NCBI GenBank assembly: GCA_007116095.1
Contig: SKJD01000285.1
Location: forward strand, 1 to 12,420
DNA: 12,420 nucleotides
DNA from: Candidatus Hydrogenedentota bacterium
Lineage (GTDB): Bacteria; Hydrogenedentota; Hydrogenedentia; Hydrogenedentales; SCBR16-9
Reading direction: 5' to 3'
Position numbers and translations under genes: made by a program
Notes under the pieces: model-generated
The model's input: only the letters and a program-made list of their open reading frames with translations
What the model was told of the DNA's origin: nothing
Databases searched by the model: none
Shown: in pieces, positions 3,119-12,420 of the stretch
How positions within the stretch are numbered: the stretch's first letter is position 1
Layout of the letters: each line of letters opens with the position of its first letter

Positions 3119-3148
3119 TTGACATGTCCTGCCGAGACAGGACATGCT
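3119..3148 (+). promoter_or_regulatory. Perfect -35 box and 24-bp palindrome: promoter/operator candidate for the MoxR operon
   Basis: TTGACA at 3119-3124 is a perfect -35 hexamer. It overlaps a palindrome with 9-base arms, CATGTCCTG (3123-3131) and CAGGACATG (3138-3146), around a 6-base centre. The position expected for the -10 (about 3142-3148) is poor; CATGCT matches only three of six. A perfect -35, a dyad in the spacer and a weak -10 suggest a regulated promoter. The alternative is a simple mRNA hairpin. There is no T tract, so it is not a terminator. Confidence 0.45.
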
Positions 3149-3194
3149 AGTCCCTCTGACTGCGAAATGTAATATACCCCCTGGGGATAGGAAT

Positions 3195-4010
3195 ATGGTC
3201 TGGTATTACCTGCATGGAGAAGCGCGGCGCGGCCCGATCGGGGAGGAAACCTTCGAGCAACTGGTGGCGGAGGGGACAATCCATCCTGAAACACGGGTCT
3301 GGCAACCCGGCATGACCCACTGGACGCCGCTGGAGGCCCTGGGTTCTGCCCGTATGGCCCGTGAAGGCGACGGACCGCGGAAACTGCCCTGTATGGAGTG
3401 CCGGGAATTGCGCCCGGCGGCGGAGATGCTCCCCATGCAGGGGCAGTGTCTCTGTGGCGCCTGTAAACCGACGTATCTCATGCGCCTGCGGGAGGGCAAT
3501 CTGAAGCATGCGGGCTTGCCCTATGCCCGTTTCTGGCGGCGCGCGGTCGCCAAGTTTTTGGACTACGGCCTCATGGCGCTCTACACCAACGCCATCGCGG
3601 TGTTGTTGGGGGTCATTTTCACCAACCGGGATGTGGGCGAGATGGTTGATCTGGGATTGACCTTGGTGCTGATCCTGATTTCGGTCGTGCTGCAGGGCAT
3701 ATACCATGTCTGGTTCATCGGAAAATACGGCGCCACCCTGGGGAAAATGGCCCTGGGCATCAAGATCGTCACGCCGGATGGTGGTAAAGTCAGCTACCTG
3801 CGGGCCTTCGCCCGGTATCTCCTGGAAGGGGTGAGCAGTTTTGCCCTCTACCTGGGCTATATCATGGCCGCTTACGATGATCGTTACCGCACCCTGCACG
3901 ACATGTTCTGCCACACCCGGGTGGTCCTGGATATTAAGGAAGAGGCGAAGACACCGGCATTTGCCCGGGAAACGACGACGTTGCCGCAAGGCGCGGGAGG
4001 GGCCGCATGA
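3195..4010 (+). CDS. GYF_2 - zinc-site - RDD membrane protein
   Basis: The 271-residue product has three parts. Residues 2-49 are a GYF_2 (DUF4339) domain: WYYLHGEARRGPIGEETF, then VWQPGMTHWTPL; GYF folds bind peptides. Residues 66-90 hold a Cys cluster (C66, C69, C85, C87, C90) that could bind zinc. Residues about 108-246 are an RDD membrane domain: RFWRRAVAKFLDYGL, TLGKMALGIKIV and DDRYRTLHDMF, with membrane segments near 122-141, 155-175 and 205-226. RDD proteins are integral membrane proteins of mostly unknown role. ATG 3195 follows GGGGATAGGA and starts directly at the GYF fold; the earlier in-frame ATG at 3144 lies in the palindrome region and adds nothing conserved-looking. It is the first gene of the plus operon; its stop overlaps the next start by 4 bases. 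Confidence 0.9.
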   Translation: MVWYYLHGEARRGPIGEETFEQLVAEGTIHPETRVWQPGMTHWTPLEALGSARMAREGDGPRKLPCMECRELRPAAEMLPMQGQCLCGACKPTYLMRLREGNLKHAGLPYARFWRRAVAKFLDYGLMALYTNAIAVLLGVIFTNRDVGEMVDLGLTLVLILISVVLQGIYHVWFIGKYGATLGKMALGIKIVTPDGGKVSYLRAFARYLLEGVSSFALYLGYIMAAYDDRYRTLHDMFCHTRVVLDIKEEAKTPAFARETTTLPQGAGGAA

Positions 4011-4618: not shown

Positions 4619-4695
4619 CCAGACGTTTATGACGGAATTATGTCTGTGTTGTCATCCCCGTTCCGGATGTTGACCCTGTATTGGAGCATTTCTAT

Positions 4696-5793
4696 ATGCC
4701 GAAACCCCTGGCGAAAAACGCCACATTTGGCGGCGTGAGCCGTTTGTACCTGGAAGAGGACCGCTTGGTGCACACCCAGTTGGTCTTCGTGAGCGAGCGT
4801 ATACGTCGCTTTTACTACAGCGACATCCAGGCCATTACCTGCCACCGTACGCCCAATGGCATGTACGCCAACCTTGTGACTTTGCTGCTCGCCACACTAA
4901 CGACTATGGCCACGGTATATTTTCTGGGCTTCTATGAGGGCGATGAATTTACCGCAGTGGGCGTCGGTGTGGTGATGCTCATGTTCGCTACGGCGGCCTG
5001 GGTCTGGTTGTTGTATAACCTCTACAAAGGCGGCACCTGCGAGACCTGGCTTTACACCCCCGTGAGTCGGATGCGGCTGCGTGCGCTGGACCGGTACAAG
5101 CAGGCGAACCGCGTGCTGGATACCCTGATGCCGCGCATTGCCCAGGCCCAGGCGGCGCTTCCAATGTCCCCGGAACCGCAGACGGCGCCGAGCATGCCCC
5201 TGGCGCCGTATTACCGGGAAGACAGGCGCGACAACCCCGGCAGCTACGGCCCCATCGGCAGTGTGCAACCTTTTGTCGCGTTCTATTGTCTGGTGTTGCT
5301 CTATGCCCTGGTGCTCGGTATCAATGTGCTCGGTGAGTCCTCGGCGAAGTTTCTGGTGGATGAAGCCCTGTTCCTGGTCATCATCGTAACGGCAAGTATC
5401 GTGTTCTTCCTTTACAAAGGACGGATGCATATGCCAGCGTTGCGCCTGTACACGATCCTGCTGTTTTTTGTCCTGATGATTGATCGCAATGTCGTTCATT
5501 TCTGGTTTCAGTTGGGTTCCTTCAGTTACGGGATTGCGCCGGATCAGGAAGATTTAACCCGGTACAGCGGTTTCGGCATGCTGTACATGTCGCTGTATCT
5601 GGTGCTGGCCAGTATCGGGCTCCTGCTCTGTAATCGGCACCCCCAATGGGCGGCCCGCTATCTGGAGGCCAGGGAACAGACGAGAAATGCGGCTGCGCCT
5701 ACGGAAGAAACGTTTGAGCAGGCAGTCGAAGTCGAAGCGGAAGCGGTAGATGAGCCCAGGCCGGAAACGACGCGGGAGCCGTCGCATGACTGA
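4696..5793 (+). CDS. Polytopic membrane protein with PH-like N-terminal domain
   Basis: The 365-residue product opens with a strand-rich segment, FGGVSRLYLEEDRLVHTQLV then RIRRFYYSDIQAITCHRT, typical of bacterial PH-like domains. Two membrane segments (about 57-77, 83-106) interrupt it before a segment (CETWLYTPVSRMRLRAL and a helix) that looks like the closing part of the same fold. A Pro-rich linker (about 148-190) leads to four more membrane segments (about 193-214, 222-242, 248-268, 295-315) and an acidic Glu/Ala/Pro-rich tail. ATG 4696 is chosen because GGAG sits 9 bases upstream; an in-frame TTG at 4681 has no ribosome site. A 77-base gap separates it from the previous gene, the widest in the operon; the region holds only a weak CAGAC/GTCTG dyad (4620-4646). 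I do not recognise a named family. Confidence 0.8.
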   Translation: MPKPLAKNATFGGVSRLYLEEDRLVHTQLVFVSERIRRFYYSDIQAITCHRTPNGMYANLVTLLLATLTTMATVYFLGFYEGDEFTAVGVGVVMLMFATAAWVWLLYNLYKGGTCETWLYTPVSRMRLRALDRYKQANRVLDTLMPRIAQAQAALPMSPEPQTAPSMPLAPYYREDRRDNPGSYGPIGSVQPFVAFYCLVLLYALVLGINVLGESSAKFLVDEALFLVIIVTASIVFFLYKGRMHMPALRLYTILLFFVLMIDRNVVHFWFQLGSFSYGIAPDQEDLTRYSGFGMLYMSLYLVLASIGLLLCNRHPQWAARYLEAREQTRNAAAPTEETFEQAVEVEAEAVDEPRPETTREPSHD

Positions 5794-6139: not shown

Positions 6140-8008
6140 ATGTCGGCGGAACTGAGCGAAAAAGCGTATCGCAACAGCGCCAACCGGGAACGCATGGGGG
6201 GGCTGCGTCTGGCCGAGGAGGCCATTGCCTTTTTGCGCCTGCACGGGCAGGCCTCGTTGCTGGTCTATGGTCTGGGCACCCTGCCTTTTGTCGGGGGCCT
6301 GATCCTCTGCGCCGGCCTGATGCTGCACAGCCTGTACGGGCATCTCTACCTGGAGATGGCCGCCTTGTTGCTGACGGTCCTGTATTTCGTCATGAAATGG
6401 GCGCAGCACCGGTACATGCGTGGGCTCTACAGGTTATTGCGGGGTGAATCCGCAGCGTTTCATGCCGAAGGGAAAAGACATCCCTGGCGCGCCTTCGCCT
6501 ACCAAAGCGTTACGCACACCCTGGGGCTCTTCGCCCTGCCCATCATGACCCTGCTGCTCTTTCCCATCCCCTGGTACATCGCGTTCCTCAACACGGTATC
6601 GGTGCTTGACAATAATCGCCATCCCTCACTGCGCGCCTTGTGGTCGGAGGCCTACCGCCTGGTGCAACTGTGGACCCGGCAAAGTTTCATGCTGTTCTGG
6701 CTGCTGTCGCCTCTGGCGGTGATTCTGTTGGTGGTTCCGCTTTACACCCTCATACCGGTATTGGTAGCCGTGGATGATTATGTGATCTTTGCGATGCTTG
6801 TAATCTACCTGATACTGGGAGGCCTGGGTATCTTCTTCGTGGCGCCCATTGCCTGCGTCGTCTTTATCAACCTCGGCTCGGGACTCCTCTTGCTGATGAC
6901 CCTCTTTGTCTCGTTCTCGGGGATGGAAACGCGGGACTACTTCCTGACGATGGTTATCAGCGACACCGTTTTCTGGCTGGGCTGCGCGGGACTCTGTTAC
7001 CTGGTCATGGACCCGGTATTGAAATGCGCTTTCGTCTTGCGTGTGTTTCACGCGCAGTCCCTGAAAACCGGCGACGACCTGCACGCCGCCCTACAGCGTA
7101 TCCAGCAGGAGCAGGAGGGCGTTGCTGTGGGTGGCGTCATGACGCCCGCACCCTCCGCCCCGGTCCCGGCCCTGGGTCGGGCGTCGCAAGCCGGCATCGT
7201 CCTGTTGCTGGGCGTAGCGGCCCTGTTGGGAAGCGCCATGCCAGCCCAGGCGCAGGACAGCGCCCCTGTCCCGATTCCGGTGGTGGAGCTGGAGGCCTCG
7301 GTGCAGGAGACCCTGTCGCAACAGCGCTATGCCTGGCGCTTGCCCCGGGACTTTGATCGCAGCAGCTACGAAAACCCGATCTATACGTTGGTCCGTAACC
7401 TGCTGGAAACCGCAAAGAACGCCTTTGACCGGGTGATGGGCTGGCTAGACGATCTGGCGGACCGTCTGGGGCGGCAACTTGCGTTCGGTGACGGAGGTGG
7501 CGCCGAGGTCGCCTGGTATATTCTCTGGGGCCTGCGCGTGCTGATCGCGGTGCTGGTCGTGATCCTTCTTTATATGCTCTACCGCGCACTGCGCACCTAC
7601 CTGCGCGAACGCAAGGACCTGTCGGTCTCCATGCCCTCGCTGTCCCATGTACTGCCCGACATCCAGGCGGAGGACGTGCACGCGGGCGACCTGCCCGAGG
7701 AGGACTGGCTGGGCATGGCGCAAGACCTCGCGGAGCAAGGCGACTACCGGGCGGCGATGCGCGCGGTGTACCTGGGCATGCTCGCGGGGCTGGCCCGCCA
7801 GGAGTATCTCCATCTCGCACGCTACAAGTCCAACGCGGAGTACCTGCGGGAATTGCAGCGGCGCATGCAGCGGGAAGCCCAATCGCTTCAGGCCTTTCAC
7901 GAGGGCACACGCAGTGTGGAGGCGGTGTGGTACGGCGGGCACCCGGCCAACCCGGATCAGTTCCAGCGGATGCGGTCGCTCTATACGGCGGTGACAGCCC
8001 ATGACTAG
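6140..8008 (+). CDS. Polytopic membrane domain fused to a DUF4129 protein
   Basis: The 622-residue product has two halves. Residues 1-300 form a domain with about six or seven membrane segments (near 38-60, 68-86, 125-150, 183-205, 213-242, 243-260, 276-290) that I do not recognise. Residues 334-372 look like a complete Sec signal peptide, with a hydrophobic core at 352-366 and cleavage motif AQA at 369-371. After it come a helical extracytoplasmic segment, a membrane segment (about 456-480) and a cytoplasmic DUF4129 domain (about 520-618: YRAAMRAVYLGMLAGLARQE, KSNAEYLRELQRR, VEAVWYGG). In related loci these are usually separate genes. AAGGAGG precedes ATG 6140 by only 2 bases, which is tight, so the start is uncertain. 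An internal ribosome site and GTG at 7127 could release the DUF4129 half. The next gene overlaps by 8 bases. Confidence 0.85.
   Translation: MSAELSEKAYRNSANRERMGGLRLAEEAIAFLRLHGQASLLVYGLGTLPFVGGLILCAGLMLHSLYGHLYLEMAALLLTVLYFVMKWAQHRYMRGLYRLLRGESAAFHAEGKRHPWRAFAYQSVTHTLGLFALPIMTLLLFPIPWYIAFLNTVSVLDNNRHPSLRALWSEAYRLVQLWTRQSFMLFWLLSPLAVILLVVPLYTLIPVLVAVDDYVIFAMLVIYLILGGLGIFFVAPIACVVFINLGSGLLLLMTLFVSFSGMETRDYFLTMVISDTVFWLGCAGLCYLVMDPVLKCAFVLRVFHAQSLKTGDDLHAALQRIQQEQEGVAVGGVMTPAPSAPVPALGRASQAGIVLLLGVAALLGSAMPAQAQDSAPVPIPVVELEASVQETLSQQRYAWRLPRDFDRSSYENPIYTLVRNLLETAKNAFDRVMGWLDDLADRLGRQLAFGDGGGAEVAWYILWGLRVLIAVLVVILLYMLYRALRTYLRERKDLSVSMPSLSHVLPDIQAEDVHAGDLPEEDWLGMAQDLAEQGDYRAAMRAVYLGMLAGLARQEYLHLARYKSNAEYLRELQRRMQREAQSLQAFHEGTRSVEAVWYGGHPANPDQFQRMRSLYTAVTAHD
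7113..7129 (+). promoter_or_regulatory. Internal ribosome-binding site and in-frame GTG in the DUF4129 fusion gene
   Basis: AGGAGGG at 7113-7119 is followed after 7 bases by GTG 7127-7129, in frame with the gene (codon 330); an ATG follows at codon 334. Initiation here would give a separate 293-residue DUF4129 protein beginning with its signal peptide. The Shine-Dalgarno match and spacing are better than at the annotated start 6140. Confidence 0.55.
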
Positions 8009-9587
8009 GCGACAACGCATAGCGGCGTTCGTGCTGTTGGCGATGGGCCTGTTCCTGGTCGCAGCCCTGTATCAGCAGTTGCGGCACCATTACCACCGGG
8101 GCGAGCACGCCGCCTACTACACGACCTTCCGGGAAGACCCGATGGGCGCCTCGGCGCTCTATGAGTCGCTGGTTGCCATGCCGTCGCTGGAAGTCACGCG
8201 GAATCTCCGGGGTATGCTACCGGATTTGTCGGAACCCGATCTGACCCTGGTCTACCTGGGTACGGGGATACATCCTGACCCGGTGTCCTTTTTGGAGGAA
8301 ACCGAGGCTTTCGTGGAAGCCGGCGGGAGGCTGGTCGTTGCGCATTCCGCCCTGAGTTACTGGGACCTCCAAAGGGACCTTTGGGCTGTGGATTTTTTCC
8401 GTCGCCAGTTTGAGGAAGACCTTCCGAATGAGGAAGAAGAGGCTGAAGGGGAAGAAGCTGACCCGGAAGCTGAGGCGGGTGAAGCGGAGGAGGCTGGCGT
8501 AGACAGAGTTGGGGGAGAATCCCAGGACGACGCGGAAGACATCGAAGAGGCGGAAGAAGAGGCGGAAGAAGAAGAAGAAGCGCCGGAGCCGAAATATCAA
8601 GACATTTCCGAACGCTGGGGTTTTGATTATGGCTTTGACGAAGCGGAGGTGGACGAAGATAGTGAAATTGGCTTCCTCTTTGACGGGGAAAATATTTTTA
8701 CCATCTTCAGCCCCGCTACGGCCCAATCGGCCGAGGCCAGCGCGGAATTTCTGGAAGGGGTGACGCTGCCCGAGTCCCTGCCCTGGCGTTCCCTGGTCTA
8801 TTTCACAGACCTCGGCCCGGAATGGACGGCGCTCTATACGGTGGAGGAGGAGGTGGTGGTGATGCGGCGGGACATGGGCGCGGGCGAGATACTGCTCCTC
8901 AGCGATTCCTATGTGTTCAGCAACGAAAGCCTGAAATTCGAGCCCCGGATCGACTTCCTCGGTTGGGCGCTCGGAGGGCATCCCCGGATCGTGTTCAACG
9001 AGACCCATCTGGGCAGCGGGGTGCAGGGCAATCTGATGACCTTGATCCGCCGTTACCGCCTGACGGGATTCCTCGTGGCGTTTTTGAGCATCGGCCTGCT
9101 CTATGTCTGGAAGAGCACGGTCTCACTGCTGCCGCGTCGGCCGGATGTGGAAGCGACGCAGTTGCTGCGGGTGGATGCCTACCACGACGCCACGACGACC
9201 CTGAGCCATCTTTTGCGGCGGGGCCTGGGCTATCCCCAGTTGCTCCAGACCGCCTATGAAGAATGGAAGAAATCGCGGGGGCGGCATCAGGTGGTGTCGC
9301 CGGAAACGGACGACGCTGTGGCGCAATGCCTGGCGCTGCCGTCCCAAAGGGACTACGGGAACTTCCTGGGCGCACGCACCCGCTACGCCCGGGAGGCGTT
9401 GCAACGTTACAACGACCTGGTCGCCCTATTGCGTCGGGAAGAGCGGGGCAGTGGACGCTTTTTCGCGGCGGCGCAGCCTGTATCCAGTGAAGCAGACGAT
9501 AATAGCCCCAACTTGGATGAGCAATCTCCCCCGGCCTTGTCCGGACAGCATACCGAAACCGAGCTATCAGGAAAGGATGAGCGGTGA
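8001..9587 (+). CDS. DUF4350 membrane protein with long acidic insert
   Basis: The 528-residue product has an N-terminal membrane anchor (about residues 8-24), then a DUF4350-type region: a Ser/Tyr-rich entry with GASALYESL at 49-57, then LTLVYLGTG and FVEAGGRLVVAHS. The domain resembles glutamine-amidotransferase-like/GldG-like folds that have lost obvious catalysis. Residues about 138-196 are almost pure Glu/Ala/Asp and break the domain; the fold resumes with WRSLVYFTDLG and GAGEILLLSDSYVFSNESL. A second membrane segment lies at about 353-370, followed by a cytoplasmic tail with helices. ATG 8001 overlaps the previous stop as ATGACTAG. Without the insert the length would be near the family's usual size of about 400 residues. 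DUF4350 genes are standard neighbours of DUF4129 and MoxR. Confidence 0.85.
   Translation: MTRRQRIAAFVLLAMGLFLVAALYQQLRHHYHRGEHAAYYTTFREDPMGASALYESLVAMPSLEVTRNLRGMLPDLSEPDLTLVYLGTGIHPDPVSFLEETEAFVEAGGRLVVAHSALSYWDLQRDLWAVDFFRRQFEEDLPNEEEEAEGEEADPEAEAGEAEEAGVDRVGGESQDDAEDIEEAEEEAEEEEEAPEPKYQDISERWGFDYGFDEAEVDEDSEIGFLFDGENIFTIFSPATAQSAEASAEFLEGVTLPESLPWRSLVYFTDLGPEWTALYTVEEEVVVMRRDMGAGEILLLSDSYVFSNESLKFEPRIDFLGWALGGHPRIVFNETHLGSGVQGNLMTLIRRYRLTGFLVAFLSIGLLYVWKSTVSLLPRRPDVEATQLLRVDAYHDATTTLSHLLRRGLGYPQLLQTAYEEWKKSRGRHQVVSPETDDAVAQCLALPSQRDYGNFLGARTRYAREALQRYNDLVALLRREERGSGRFFAAAQPVSSEADDNSPNLDEQSPPALSGQHTETELSGKDER
8412..8588 (+). repeat. Purine-rich low-complexity tract coding a polyacidic segment
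   Basis: About 175 bases consist largely of GAA/GAG/GCG/GAC codons, encoding runs such as EEEEAEGEEADPEAEAGEAE and EEAEEEAEEEEEAPEP in the DUF4350 protein. The plus strand is strongly purine-biased compared with its flanks. It looks like expansion of short GA-rich codon repeats. Confidence 0.75.
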
Positions 9588-10549
9588 GCGAATACATTGA
9601 AGAGACAGAGGCCCTGCTGGCGCGCGCCCGGGCGGAAATAGGCAAGGTCATCATCGGCCAGGATCAGGTCGTGAATCAGGCCCTGATTACCATCTTGACC
9701 GGACGGCACGCCCTGGTCGAAGGGGTGCCCGGGGTGGCGAAAACGCTGCTGGTGCGCACCCTGGCCAAGGTGCTCGGGACAGACTTTAACCGCATCCAGT
9801 TCACCCCCGACCTCATGCCCGCGGACATCGTCGGCACGAATGTCTACAACTTTCAGCAGAACAGCTTCAATCTGGTTAAAGGCCCTGTCTTCACGACCTT
9901 CCTGCTGGCGGATGAAATCAACCGCGCCCCCGCGAAAACACAGTCGGCCTTGTTGCAGGCGATGCAGGAGCGGCAGGTCAGTATCGACGGCGAGACCCTG
10001 GCCCTGTCGCCCTTCTTCACGGTCTTCGCCACGCAGAACCCGATAGAATTTGAAGGCACTTACCCGCTGCCCGAAGCGCAAAAAGACCGCTTTCTCATGA
10101 AGATCGACATGGGCTGCCCGTCGCTGGAAGACGAGTTGCTCCTGGCGCAGCGCACCCTGAGCAGCGAGTCCCCGGAAGAGACCCTGGCCTCCGATGCGGT
10201 GCATCCGATCCTGAGTCCGGAGGTGATCACCGAGCTGCGCCGGCGCTTTCAAGACGTGACCCTGCGCGAGGCCTTGCTGCGTTACGCCGTGGACCTGGTC
10301 CGCTGCACGCGCAATGCCGGAGCCATTCTCGTGGGCGCGGGGCCCCGGGCGACCCAGGCGCTGCTGCTGGCGGCCCGGGTGCATGCGGTATTGGATGGCC
10401 GTGACTTTGTGACCCCGGACGACATCAAGGCGCTGGCCGTGCCGGTCCTGGGCCACCGTCTGGTGCTGCGGCCGGAGTATGAGATTGAAGGCATGAGCAA
10501 CGCGGAAGTGATCGAGCAACTGATGCGCGAGGTCACGGTGCCGCGATGA
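9584..10549 (+). CDS. MoxR-family AAA+ ATPase
   Basis: This is the ATP-driven component of the operon. The 321-residue product shows Walker A GVPGVAKT (47-54, K53), Walker B with DE at 110-111 in LLADEINRA, sensor 1 in FATQNP (N152), an EAQKDRF segment with candidate arginine finger R169, and sensor 2 in GAGPRA (R255). The C-terminal lid helices follow (FVTPDDIKALAVPVLGHRLV). Length and motif order are those of full MoxR proteins. The GTG start at 9584 overlaps the preceding stop as GTGA and has AAGGA 6 bases upstream. MoxR ATPases are thought to act as chaperones with DUF58 or vWA partners; the DUF58 gene directly downstream, overlapping by 4 bases, is the likely partner. The substrate is unknown. 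Confidence 0.95.
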   Translation: MSEYIEETEALLARARAEIGKVIIGQDQVVNQALITILTGRHALVEGVPGVAKTLLVRTLAKVLGTDFNRIQFTPDLMPADIVGTNVYNFQQNSFNLVKGPVFTTFLLADEINRAPAKTQSALLQAMQERQVSIDGETLALSPFFTVFATQNPIEFEGTYPLPEAQKDRFLMKIDMGCPSLEDELLLAQRTLSSESPEETLASDAVHPILSPEVITELRRRFQDVTLREALLRYAVDLVRCTRNAGAILVGAGPRATQALLLAARVHAVLDGRDFVTPDDIKALAVPVLGHRLVLRPEYEIEGMSNAEVIEQLMREVTVPR

Positions 10550-11892
10550 GCTGCAAGCCCACTGGCATAGCGATTTTCCTCTGGGCGATGGTTGCCCTGC
10601 TGGCCGCAATACTGTGGGCCCTGGGGACGGCGTTGTTGCTGCTGGTCCTGGGAGCAGGATCGCTGCTGGCCCTGGCCGGGCTGGATTACCGCCGGGGGCG
10701 CACGATGATCCGGCGTCTGGATGTAGGCCTGCCGGACCGCGTCACGCTGTTTCGCAATCGCCCGGACGCCATCGTCATCACCGTGGAAAATTCGGCGGGG
10801 CTTGCCTGTGAACTGGAAGTCGCGTTGGACCTGCCGGCGGCCCTGGAGGCGGAATCGGAAACGCTGCGGCAACGGCTCAACCCCGAAGGACCGATGGGCC
10901 GGGTGGACTACCCCTGTGTGGCGCGGGAGCGGGGGCGCTATGTCGTGGACGGCGTCTACTTCGCCCTGGAATCACCCCTCCGGCTCTGGCGTGTGATGCG
11001 GCATCAGCCGGGGGTGATGCGGGTGCAGGTCTATCCCGATTTGCGGGCGGAGCAGAAGCGCCTGGCCGGCTTTTTCCTGCGTCGGAACCGCAGCGGTCTG
11101 CGGGAACAGCGCCAATTGGGGAAAGGACGCGAGTTCGAGCAATTGCGGGAATACCAGTCCGGCGACAGCTACGAAGACATTCACTGGAAGGCAACCGCGC
11201 GCCGCGCCCGGCCAATAACCAAGATGTATCAGCTCGAACGGACCCAGGAACTCTACATCATCATCGACCAGTCGCGGCTGAGCGCCCGCACCGTGCGGGA
11301 TGCGTCGGGAACGACGCCCTACAACGCCACCCACCTGGAACGCTACATCATGGCGGCGCAACTGCTGGCGCAGGTGGCGGAGCAGCAGGGAGACCGGGTG
11401 GGGCTCGCGGCTTTCAGTGATCAGGTCACCCGGTTTGTGCGTGCGGGGTCCGGCCCCAGCCATTACAAGGCCTGTCGCGAGGCGGTGTTTGATCTCCAGC
11501 CCCGGCTGGAGAATCCGGACTTCGAAGAGCTCTTCACCTTTTTGCGTCTGCGGCTGCACAAACGCGCTTTGCTGATCTTTCTGACGCACCTGGACGACCC
11601 CCTATTCGCCGAGCAATTCTCGGCGCATGCGCCGGTGCTCAGTACGCACCACCTGGTGCTGGTGGCGATGTTGAATCCCGAGCATATCCGCTCCCTTACG
11701 CAGACCGGTCCCGTGCGGCAACTGGAAGCGGCCTATGACGCGCTGAGCGGTCACATGCAATGGCGGGGTTTGCTGGAGATACAGCGCGAATTGAAACACC
11801 GGGGAATCAGCCTGGGGATGATGCACCATCGTAACCTGAGCCTGGAGCTGATAGAACAGTATATGCGGGTGAAGAAGAGGCAACTGCTGTGA
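10546..11892 (+). CDS. DUF58 protein, likely MoxR partner
   Basis: The 448-residue product has two N-terminal membrane segments (about 8-24, 26-46), a beta-rich extracytoplasmic or linker part (about 60-190), then the DUF58 signature GREFEQLREYQSGD (194-207) and IHWKATARR (212-220), followed by a vWA-like domain starting YIIIDQSRL (about 237-245). The metal-site motif DxSxS is seen only as DQSRL, so the last Ser is missing; metal binding may be altered, though proteins of this neighbourhood often deviate here. Start ATG 10546 overlaps the MoxR stop as ATGA. In characterised pairs, DUF58/vWA proteins bridge MoxR ATPases to their clients. This role is inferred here from adjacency. Confidence 0.93.
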   Translation: MSCKPTGIAIFLWAMVALLAAILWALGTALLLLVLGAGSLLALAGLDYRRGRTMIRRLDVGLPDRVTLFRNRPDAIVITVENSAGLACELEVALDLPAALEAESETLRQRLNPEGPMGRVDYPCVARERGRYVVDGVYFALESPLRLWRVMRHQPGVMRVQVYPDLRAEQKRLAGFFLRRNRSGLREQRQLGKGREFEQLREYQSGDSYEDIHWKATARRARPITKMYQLERTQELYIIIDQSRLSARTVRDASGTTPYNATHLERYIMAAQLLAQVAEQQGDRVGLAAFSDQVTRFVRAGSGPSHYKACREAVFDLQPRLENPDFEELFTFLRLRLHKRALLIFLTHLDDPLFAEQFSAHAPVLSTHHLVLVAMLNPEHIRSLTQTGPVRQLEAAYDALSGHMQWRGLLEIQRELKHRGISLGMMHHRNLSLELIEQYMRVKKRQLL

Positions 11893-12420
11893 TACTGGAC
11901 ATGCAACGATTTCTGGCCCAGGAGCGGCCGTACTGGAACGAGCTGGATGCGCTGTTGACCCGCATGCAGGAAGGCGCCGGGGACACGCTGTCCCTCGAAG
12001 ACGTGCAGCGGCTCTATTACCTGTACCGCCGCGCCGCTTCGGACCTGGCGCGACTGCGGGGGCATGTCGCCGAGGTGGAGTTGCAGCAATACCTGGAGAC
12101 GCTGGTGGCCCGCGCCTATGGCGAGATACATGAGGTGCGGGTGCGGCAATATATTCGACCGGTTCACTTTCTGCGGGTGCAATTTCCGGTAACGGTTCGC
12201 CGTTACAGCCGCGCCCTGTTCCTGTCCTGCCTGATCTTTGGCGTGGGCGCTGTCTGTGGCGGCTTCCTGACGTTCCTGGATGCGGAGAACAAGCGCTACA
12301 TGGTGCCCGAGCAGTTCGCGCATATCCTGGACGACCCCTCGCAGCGGGTGGCGGAAGAGGAGGCTGTGGAGTATGATCACCTGGCCGGTGGCCGCGCCTA
12401 CTTCTCCACCTACCTGATGA
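11889..12420 (+). CDS. SpoIIM-family (DUF95) integral membrane protein, 5' part
   Basis: The frame starts at GTG 11889, overlapping the DUF58 stop as GTGA, with AGAGG 8 bases upstream; it is open to the window end (177 codons seen). An in-frame ATG at 11901 is an alternative without a clear ribosome site. The N-terminal part (FLAQERPYWNELDALLTRMQ, then LSLEDVQRLYYLYRRAASDL, then VELQQYLETLVARAYGEIHE) has the pattern of the SpoIIM family: a Trp-containing first helix, a Leu-rich second and a DLA-R motif. A first membrane segment lies at about residues 106-127, followed by NKRYMVPEQFAH. These proteins are multi-pass and occur in many non-sporulating bacteria with RDD and MoxR, so no sporulation role is implied. 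Confidence 0.88.
   Translation, partial: MILDMQRFLAQERPYWNELDALLTRMQEGAGDTLSLEDVQRLYYLYRRAASDLARLRGHVAEVELQQYLETLVARAYGEIHEVRVRQYIRPVHFLRVQFPVTVRRYSRALFLSCLIFGVGAVCGGFLTFLDAENKRYMVPEQFAHILDDPSQRVAEEEAVEYDHLAGGRAYFSTYLM

Follow-up and report, generated by a model that had tools for sequence, protein, structure and literature searches.

The fused gene at positions 6140–8008 of the window is a good candidate for a bacterial polyprotein processed by signal peptidase. The window is the whole stretch of 12,420 nucleotides that was analysed, a contig of a Candidatus Hydrogenedentota bacterium, and all its genes considered here lie on the + strand. The product of 622 residues, a length already given correctly in the initial annotation, is probably a two-subunit membrane polyprotein, in which a CysZ-like module and an anchored DUF4129 module are joined by an internal signal peptide and would be separated by cleavage; its gene stands in an operon with RDD, DUF4350, MoxR and DUF58 genes. 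The signal is kept in one-gene and two-gene relatives alike, which suggests that one long protein is made and then cut in two.

Genomic context and modules of the encoded protein

The source genome of the window is 63.7% complete and consists of 503 contigs. According to the list of open reading frames and Pfam, the fused gene is a member of a same-strand gene run. Upstream of it are the genes of a GYF_2-RDD protein (3144–4010, Pfam), a protein with weak zinc-finger matches below the Pfam cut-off (start at 4007), an unknown protein (start at 4681) and a protein with a B-box match just under the Pfam cut-off (start at 5750). Downstream, the gene of a DUF4350 protein (8001–9587) overlaps the fused gene by 8 nt and is followed by genes of a MoxR-type AAA_3 ATPase (9584–10549) and a DUF58 protein (10546–11892), all three assigned by Pfam. 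The last gene (11889–12420) runs into the contig end; no Pfam match was found for this fragment, which occupies the position of SpoIIM in two of the split loci described below (L092 and L106). The DUF4350 protein contains a long low-complexity insertion rich in Glu, Asp and Ala (8400–8620).

The encoded protein includes a polytopic N-module, an internal signal peptide, a periplasmic segment, a transmembrane helix and a cytoplasmic DUF4129 domain. The N-module (residues 1–316, positions 6140–7087) is a multi-helix membrane domain according to the alignment and a structure model. It belongs to no Pfam family, and matches to Pfam or NCBIfam families other than DUF4129 occur in at most 3 of 33 members. 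The structure model resembles CysZ, tied with yeast PNS1. By eye, the N-module is longer in many members from the window phylum than in members from other phyla, the start codons being uncertain.

The internal signal peptide (residues 346–371, positions 7175–7252) is followed by a predicted periplasmic stretch (7253–7504), for which the alignment and the model give conserved residues L384 and W399 and a long helix at 413–446. The transmembrane helix of the second half spans residues 457–486 approximately, with boundaries set by eye (7508–7597), and is followed by an Arg-rich side. The DUF4129 domain, named as such in the initial annotation, was confirmed by Pfam (PF13559, residues 544–615, positions 7769–7984, E 4e-11, 43.3 bits against a cut-off of 24.8). 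All 33 members scanned match PF13559 at E <= 0.1, and none of them has a Pfam match to TgpA_N or to the transglutaminase core at this threshold. The wider DUF4129 domain (7685–8005) is modelled as a HEPN-like helical bundle. HEPN domains have a four-helix fold with a catalytic R-x4-6-H motif; in the alignments there is no His among the invariant positions of the DUF4129 region.

The junction segment and its ribosome site

On sequence evidence, the segment between the two modules is a genuine and old signal peptide shared across several phyla. In the window it ends with GRASQAGIVLLLGVAALLGSAMPAQA|QDS, A369, A371 and Q372 taking positions −3, −1 and +1, and the predicted cut AQA|QDS falls between 7252 and 7253. 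A371 hardly varies among the 18 rows of alignment A1. For a broader comparison the junction set comprised 101 distinct fused rows from several phyla, the window included. These rows have a common layout. The membrane module closes with TG-x-D-L..., a stretch of mostly basic character leads to a short core and a c-region rich in Ala, Ser and Pro, and a variable mature start and a conserved L...W-R-x-P-R come after it. In 93 of the 101 junctions the n-region carries a net positive charge, and the 12 residues preceding the core contain an average of 2.81 K/R against 0.43 D/E. The claim that a signal peptide has been kept inside the fusion is borne out by the conserved junctions.

The relaxed −3/−1 rule holds for all 101 junctions and for 73 of the 101 second transmembrane helices of the same proteins; for the exact AxA motif the numbers are 64 and 8, respectively. 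Exact AxA alone is a weak test because the junction tails are Ala-rich, and 46.6 occurrences are expected from shuffled tails. As composition explains much of the AxA frequency, an order-sensitive test that keeps composition was applied to the c-regions of 94 non-redundant junctions. The site score, whose weights were chosen by us, is 6.42 compared with 4.48 for shuffled c-regions (p 2.1e-14, n=94). AxA followed within two residues by D, E, Q or N was found in 36 of the 94 junctions, against a mean of 10.6 and a maximum of 19 in 200 shuffled repeats, and in 0 of 94 second-helix controls. A lipobox-like motif is present in only 4 of the 101 junctions. A weight matrix gives a junction median of 9.66 versus 6.64 for shuffled sequences, and its best site in the whole protein falls at the junction in just 37 of 101 proteins; since it discriminates weakly in polytopic proteins, it was kept out of the main evidence.

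In the 28 junctions of the window phylum (L001–L056), Q follows a small-x-small site in 19 cases, compared with 14 of 73 elsewhere, the pattern being loose and counted anywhere in the segment. This preference is like the Q-rule of Bacteroidetes (PMC5837995).

The same segment could be an uncleaved, weak transmembrane helix that sets topology only, with the full-length chain working whole. We consider this unlikely. Over 19 residues the mean hydrophobicity is 1.87 at the junction and 2.72 at the second transmembrane helix (p 6.5e-17), and the junction is the less hydrophobic of the two in 98 of 101 proteins. An uncleaved helix needs the same in-out topology as a signal peptide, and the second half has a transmembrane helix of its own, so that its localisation needs no cutting; some members also do not have a good A-x-A, and by eye a convincing site is missing from four junctions (L094, L103, L118 and L122). 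Against this reading, the ordered small-residue pattern followed by D, E, Q or N exceeds that in shuffled sequences, and in split forms the segment lies close to the N-terminus, as signal peptides ordinarily do. The initial annotation had left open whether the segment would be a membrane helix or be cleaved, releasing the C-terminal half. The evidence favours the cleavage option, which still implies a product held by its own membrane helix rather than a released one. The net charge is +2.36 before the core, 0.04 before the second transmembrane helix and +3.37 after it. An in-out-in arrangement is therefore predicted, with the linker in the cytoplasm, the middle part in the periplasm and DUF4129 in the cytoplasm.

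The junction of the window also contains a putative ribosome site. As was correctly read in the initial annotation, AGGAGGG (7113–7119) is followed after 7 nt (CGTTGCT) by an in-frame GTG (7127–7129, codon 330), by an ATG four codons on (7139, codon 334, also in frame), and then by the Sec-like segment ending with AQA; the count of 293 residues from V330 to the end is likewise correct. One proposal drawn from it was that the locus makes two products, the full-length protein and a separate signal-peptide form of 293 residues. Such an exported DUF4129 protein would arise by internal initiation at GTG 7127, or with 289 residues at ATG 7139; we find this very improbable. The split relatives start near the same place, and the Shine-Dalgarno duplex energy at GTG 7127, −10.8 kcal/mol, is the strongest among the 101 junction zones and lies within the best 0.34% when set against 4065 other start codons inside the 101 fused genes. 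Within the window, however, the level of −10.8 is attained by 7 of the 309 in-frame start codons internal to the 11 open reading frames taken as genes, and the six besides GTG 7127 are all stronger; two of these six are in the fused gene itself, at codons 32 and 526, and three share one GGAGGAGG tract. When synonymous codons were redrawn 400 times for the protein of the fused gene, a site at least as strong arose at codon 330 in 79 of the trials.

The junctions as a set point the same way. The density of ATG, GTG and TTG is 0.076 per codon both in the junction zones (151 in 1975 codons) and elsewhere (4065 in 53685). Energies of −4 or lower are slightly more frequent at junction start codons (45/151 versus 860/4065, nominal p 0.015, uncorrected), and no significant junction excess was found at <= −6 (18/151 versus 328/4065, p 0.10), <= −7 (9/151 versus 177/4065, p 0.31) or <= −8 (3/151 versus 109/4065, p 0.80). 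Among the 55 start codons with a Shine-Dalgarno position past the conserved TG-x-D motif, 19 have energies <= −4 (p 0.02), and 6, 5 and 3 reach −6, −7 and −8 (p 0.45, 0.09 and 0.19, respectively). There is no clear conserved internal start because neither start codons nor strong Shine-Dalgarno sites are enriched at the junctions. Internal initiation as a conserved feature was accordingly rejected, the excess being confined to the weakest cut-off. The ribosome site of the window sits in a long linker that is missing from most rows of A1; a long linker, in this case devoid of Met, also occurs in a relative with 51% identity (P0002). The AGGAGGG and GTG site is most likely due to chance, and there may be a weak tendency to internal starts or activity in the window species alone. 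We also rejected GTCATGACG at 7139 as a relic of an ATGA overlap, since the search of the phylum turned up no split form and the linker is missing in most rows.

Fused and split forms

Of 68 genomes from the window phylum, 31 contain a match, and in 28 of these 31 one open frame spans the junction; no split at the junction was seen among the matching genomes. Of the remaining three, G033 has a frame break inside the N-module and retains the end of the N-module, the signal peptide and the C half in one frame, and G062 and G066 yielded the N half only. Frame breaks in the N-module and in the C half were observed in L018/L027 (from G033) and in L056 (from G060). These may be true pseudogenes or assembly errors.

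A scan of genome contigs with the window protein as the single query found no relative. A scan of named genomes that relied on peptide patterns of the N-module found 52 loci, with titles including Hydrogenedentota, Verrucomicrobia, Lentisphaerae, Poribacteria, Acidobacteria, Desulfobacterales/'Deltaproteobacteria', Geobacter, FCPU426 and others. By analysis of open reading frames, 46 of them are continuous over the junction, five are split (L092, L098, L099, L101 and L106) and one is truncated (L108). In a sample from the phylum of L092, 40 of 387 genomes match; as read from the table, 31 are continuous, six are split (G068, G070, G244, G324 and G389, plus G208, which has an in-frame stop), and three have one half only (G193, G319 and G423). 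In a sample from the phylum of L107, a locus of Desulfonema magnum with a fused gene, 10 of 395 genomes match, eight being continuous and two having weak C-only matches. Both are samples of larger groups with at most three candidates scored per genome, and the counts of fused and split forms from the scans should not be taken as population frequencies. Among the loci fetched from other phyla, too, fused genes outnumber split ones.

A quick LG+G4 tree was built for 106 rows, 97 fused and nine split, with the junction left out; four partial or frameshifted fused rows (L009, L013, L056 and L100) were left out, and the nine split rows include L101, with a broken C half, and L154, with a weak signal peptide. 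The 97 fused rows come from several phyla, and a long branch leads to the window. The tree contains seven changes between the fused and split states, at least four of them forced by well-supported branches; as it is unrooted, the direction of change (fission or fusion) is not readable from it. One group of seven rows contains five of the nine split rows, and the other four lie outside it, hence there are fewer than nine independent splits. That the fusion is recent in the window lineage and still keeps the parts of the old downstream gene, as was also suggested in the initial annotation and as the presence of both a signal peptide and a Shine-Dalgarno site would allow, is hardly credible given the unbroken frames in the window phylum and the prevalence of the fused form in the tree and among loci from other phyla.

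The search for separate halves that the initial annotation had proposed was successful. Seven loci are split at the junction with overlapping stop and start codons, four of them confirmed by profile. The stop of the N gene overlaps the start of the C gene as ATGA in L092, L098, L099, L106, L152 and L153, and as GTGA in L151. The distance between the end of the N gene and the beginning of the conserved [TS]G-x-D region, which reads AADLL in L106, is 11–24 residues. The C proteins of L092 and L106 have the N-terminal signal peptides MTRQFSSFFWIVAMGIIAALPLCAQ and MNRLLPFLLLIAGHAFA, respectively. A core and a small-residue site near the start are present in six of the seven downstream proteins, with that of L151 judged by eye. 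The core does not begin until residue 25 in L152 and residue 69 in L099, hence the true start may lie further in; the downstream protein of L098 has no K or R before the core. A set of 25 proteins includes six short ones of 292–321 aa. One of them (P0004) is the product of L092 itself, four (P0011, P0012, P0014 and P0025) are further free-standing C proteins with a core and a small-residue site near the start, and P0015, which has no initial Met, may be truncated. The split genes of L092 and L106 have RDD, DUF4350, MoxR, DUF58, SpoIIM and RDD partners by Pfam, DUF4350 of L106 falling below the cut-off; those of L098 have DUF4350, MoxR and DUF58.

Two further split loci differ from these. L101 is a poor case, with a broken C half and 98 nt between the genes. 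A 15-nt inverted repeat (7790–7899 of L101) spans the end of its N gene and the spacer between the half genes, and is possibly a small mobile insertion at the junction. In L154, from G208, the halves are separated by an in-frame stop, and the first downstream ATG is 3 nt after it; inspection of the junction found no evident signal peptide in the downstream gene.

The polyprotein reading can be put as a series of steps. Judging by charge and the structure model, the CysZ-like membrane module would be made first, with its end in the cytoplasm. With the basic linker and the short hydrophobic core acting as an internal signal peptide, the chain would then engage the Sec translocon a second time, placing the following segment in the periplasm, and the second transmembrane helix would bring the chain back, with DUF4129 on the cytoplasmic side. 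Most likely, signal peptidase I makes its cut after A-x-A (AQA|Q in the window), and the inner membrane would then contain two distinct subunits in a 1:1 ratio. Other lineages encode this pair of proteins in two genes overlapping by ATGA or GTGA, the second with a signal peptide near its N-terminus. As part of an envelope or secretion/remodelling complex, the pair may work with the neighbouring DUF4350, MoxR ATPase, DUF58, SpoIIM and RDD proteins; this role is suggested by gene order and by a published prediction for DUF4350-MoxR operons (PMC5898192). For the family as a whole, we lean towards the view that in several phyla a Sec-re-engaging polyprotein is cut to equimolar subunits of a MoxR/DUF58/DUF4350 machine, with repeated switching to and from ATGA-coupled pairs that leaves the mature products unchanged.

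The natural split and fused forms allow two routes to equimolar membrane subunits to be compared, namely joint translation followed by cleavage, and overlapping genes. They also bear on signal-peptide prediction, because tools that look only at the N-terminus would miss the internal case. A defined subunit pair would be added to the little-characterised MoxR-DUF58 system.

Comparison with known systems

Archaeal DUF4350-MoxR-vWA operons are predicted to encode a secretion/remodelling complex (PMC5898192). Like these, the present operon type combines DUF4350 with a MoxR ATPase; unlike them, it is bacterial and includes DUF58, RDD, SpoIIM and the polyprotein, and the consulted part of the archaeal account has no mention of a polyprotein or an internal signal (PMC5898192). 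DUF4129 proteins of MoxR-DUF58 operons have the same Pfam match (PF13559) and the same kind of operon partners. In contrast to them, the fused gene has a polytopic module without a Pfam family in front and a signal peptide in between.

TgpA-type transglutaminases consist of an N-terminal transmembrane block, a periplasmic transglutaminase, a transmembrane helix and DUF4129. The fused protein has the same order of transmembrane block, periplasmic part, transmembrane helix and DUF4129. It differs in having no TgpA_N or transglutaminase core by Pfam and in its periplasmic part, which is short and modelled as helical.

Nothing on the fused family was found among the listed literature on DUF4129, DUF4350, MoxR-DUF58, internal signal peptides and polyproteins. 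To our knowledge, bacterial polyproteins processed by signal peptidase are rarely described. FbcH of Bradyrhizobium is a precursor of cytochromes b and c1 that is cut by signal peptidase; the literature matches listed contain no description of this processing. In both FbcH and the fused gene, a polytopic protein and a signal-peptide-bearing protein are encoded in one gene and, elsewhere, in two. The present family is likewise fused in some lineages and encoded by separate genes in others, the second with a signal peptide. The proteins are unrelated, and the cleavage that is known for FbcH is predicted for the fused gene. Unlike FbcH, the fused gene represents the commoner state among the fetched loci.
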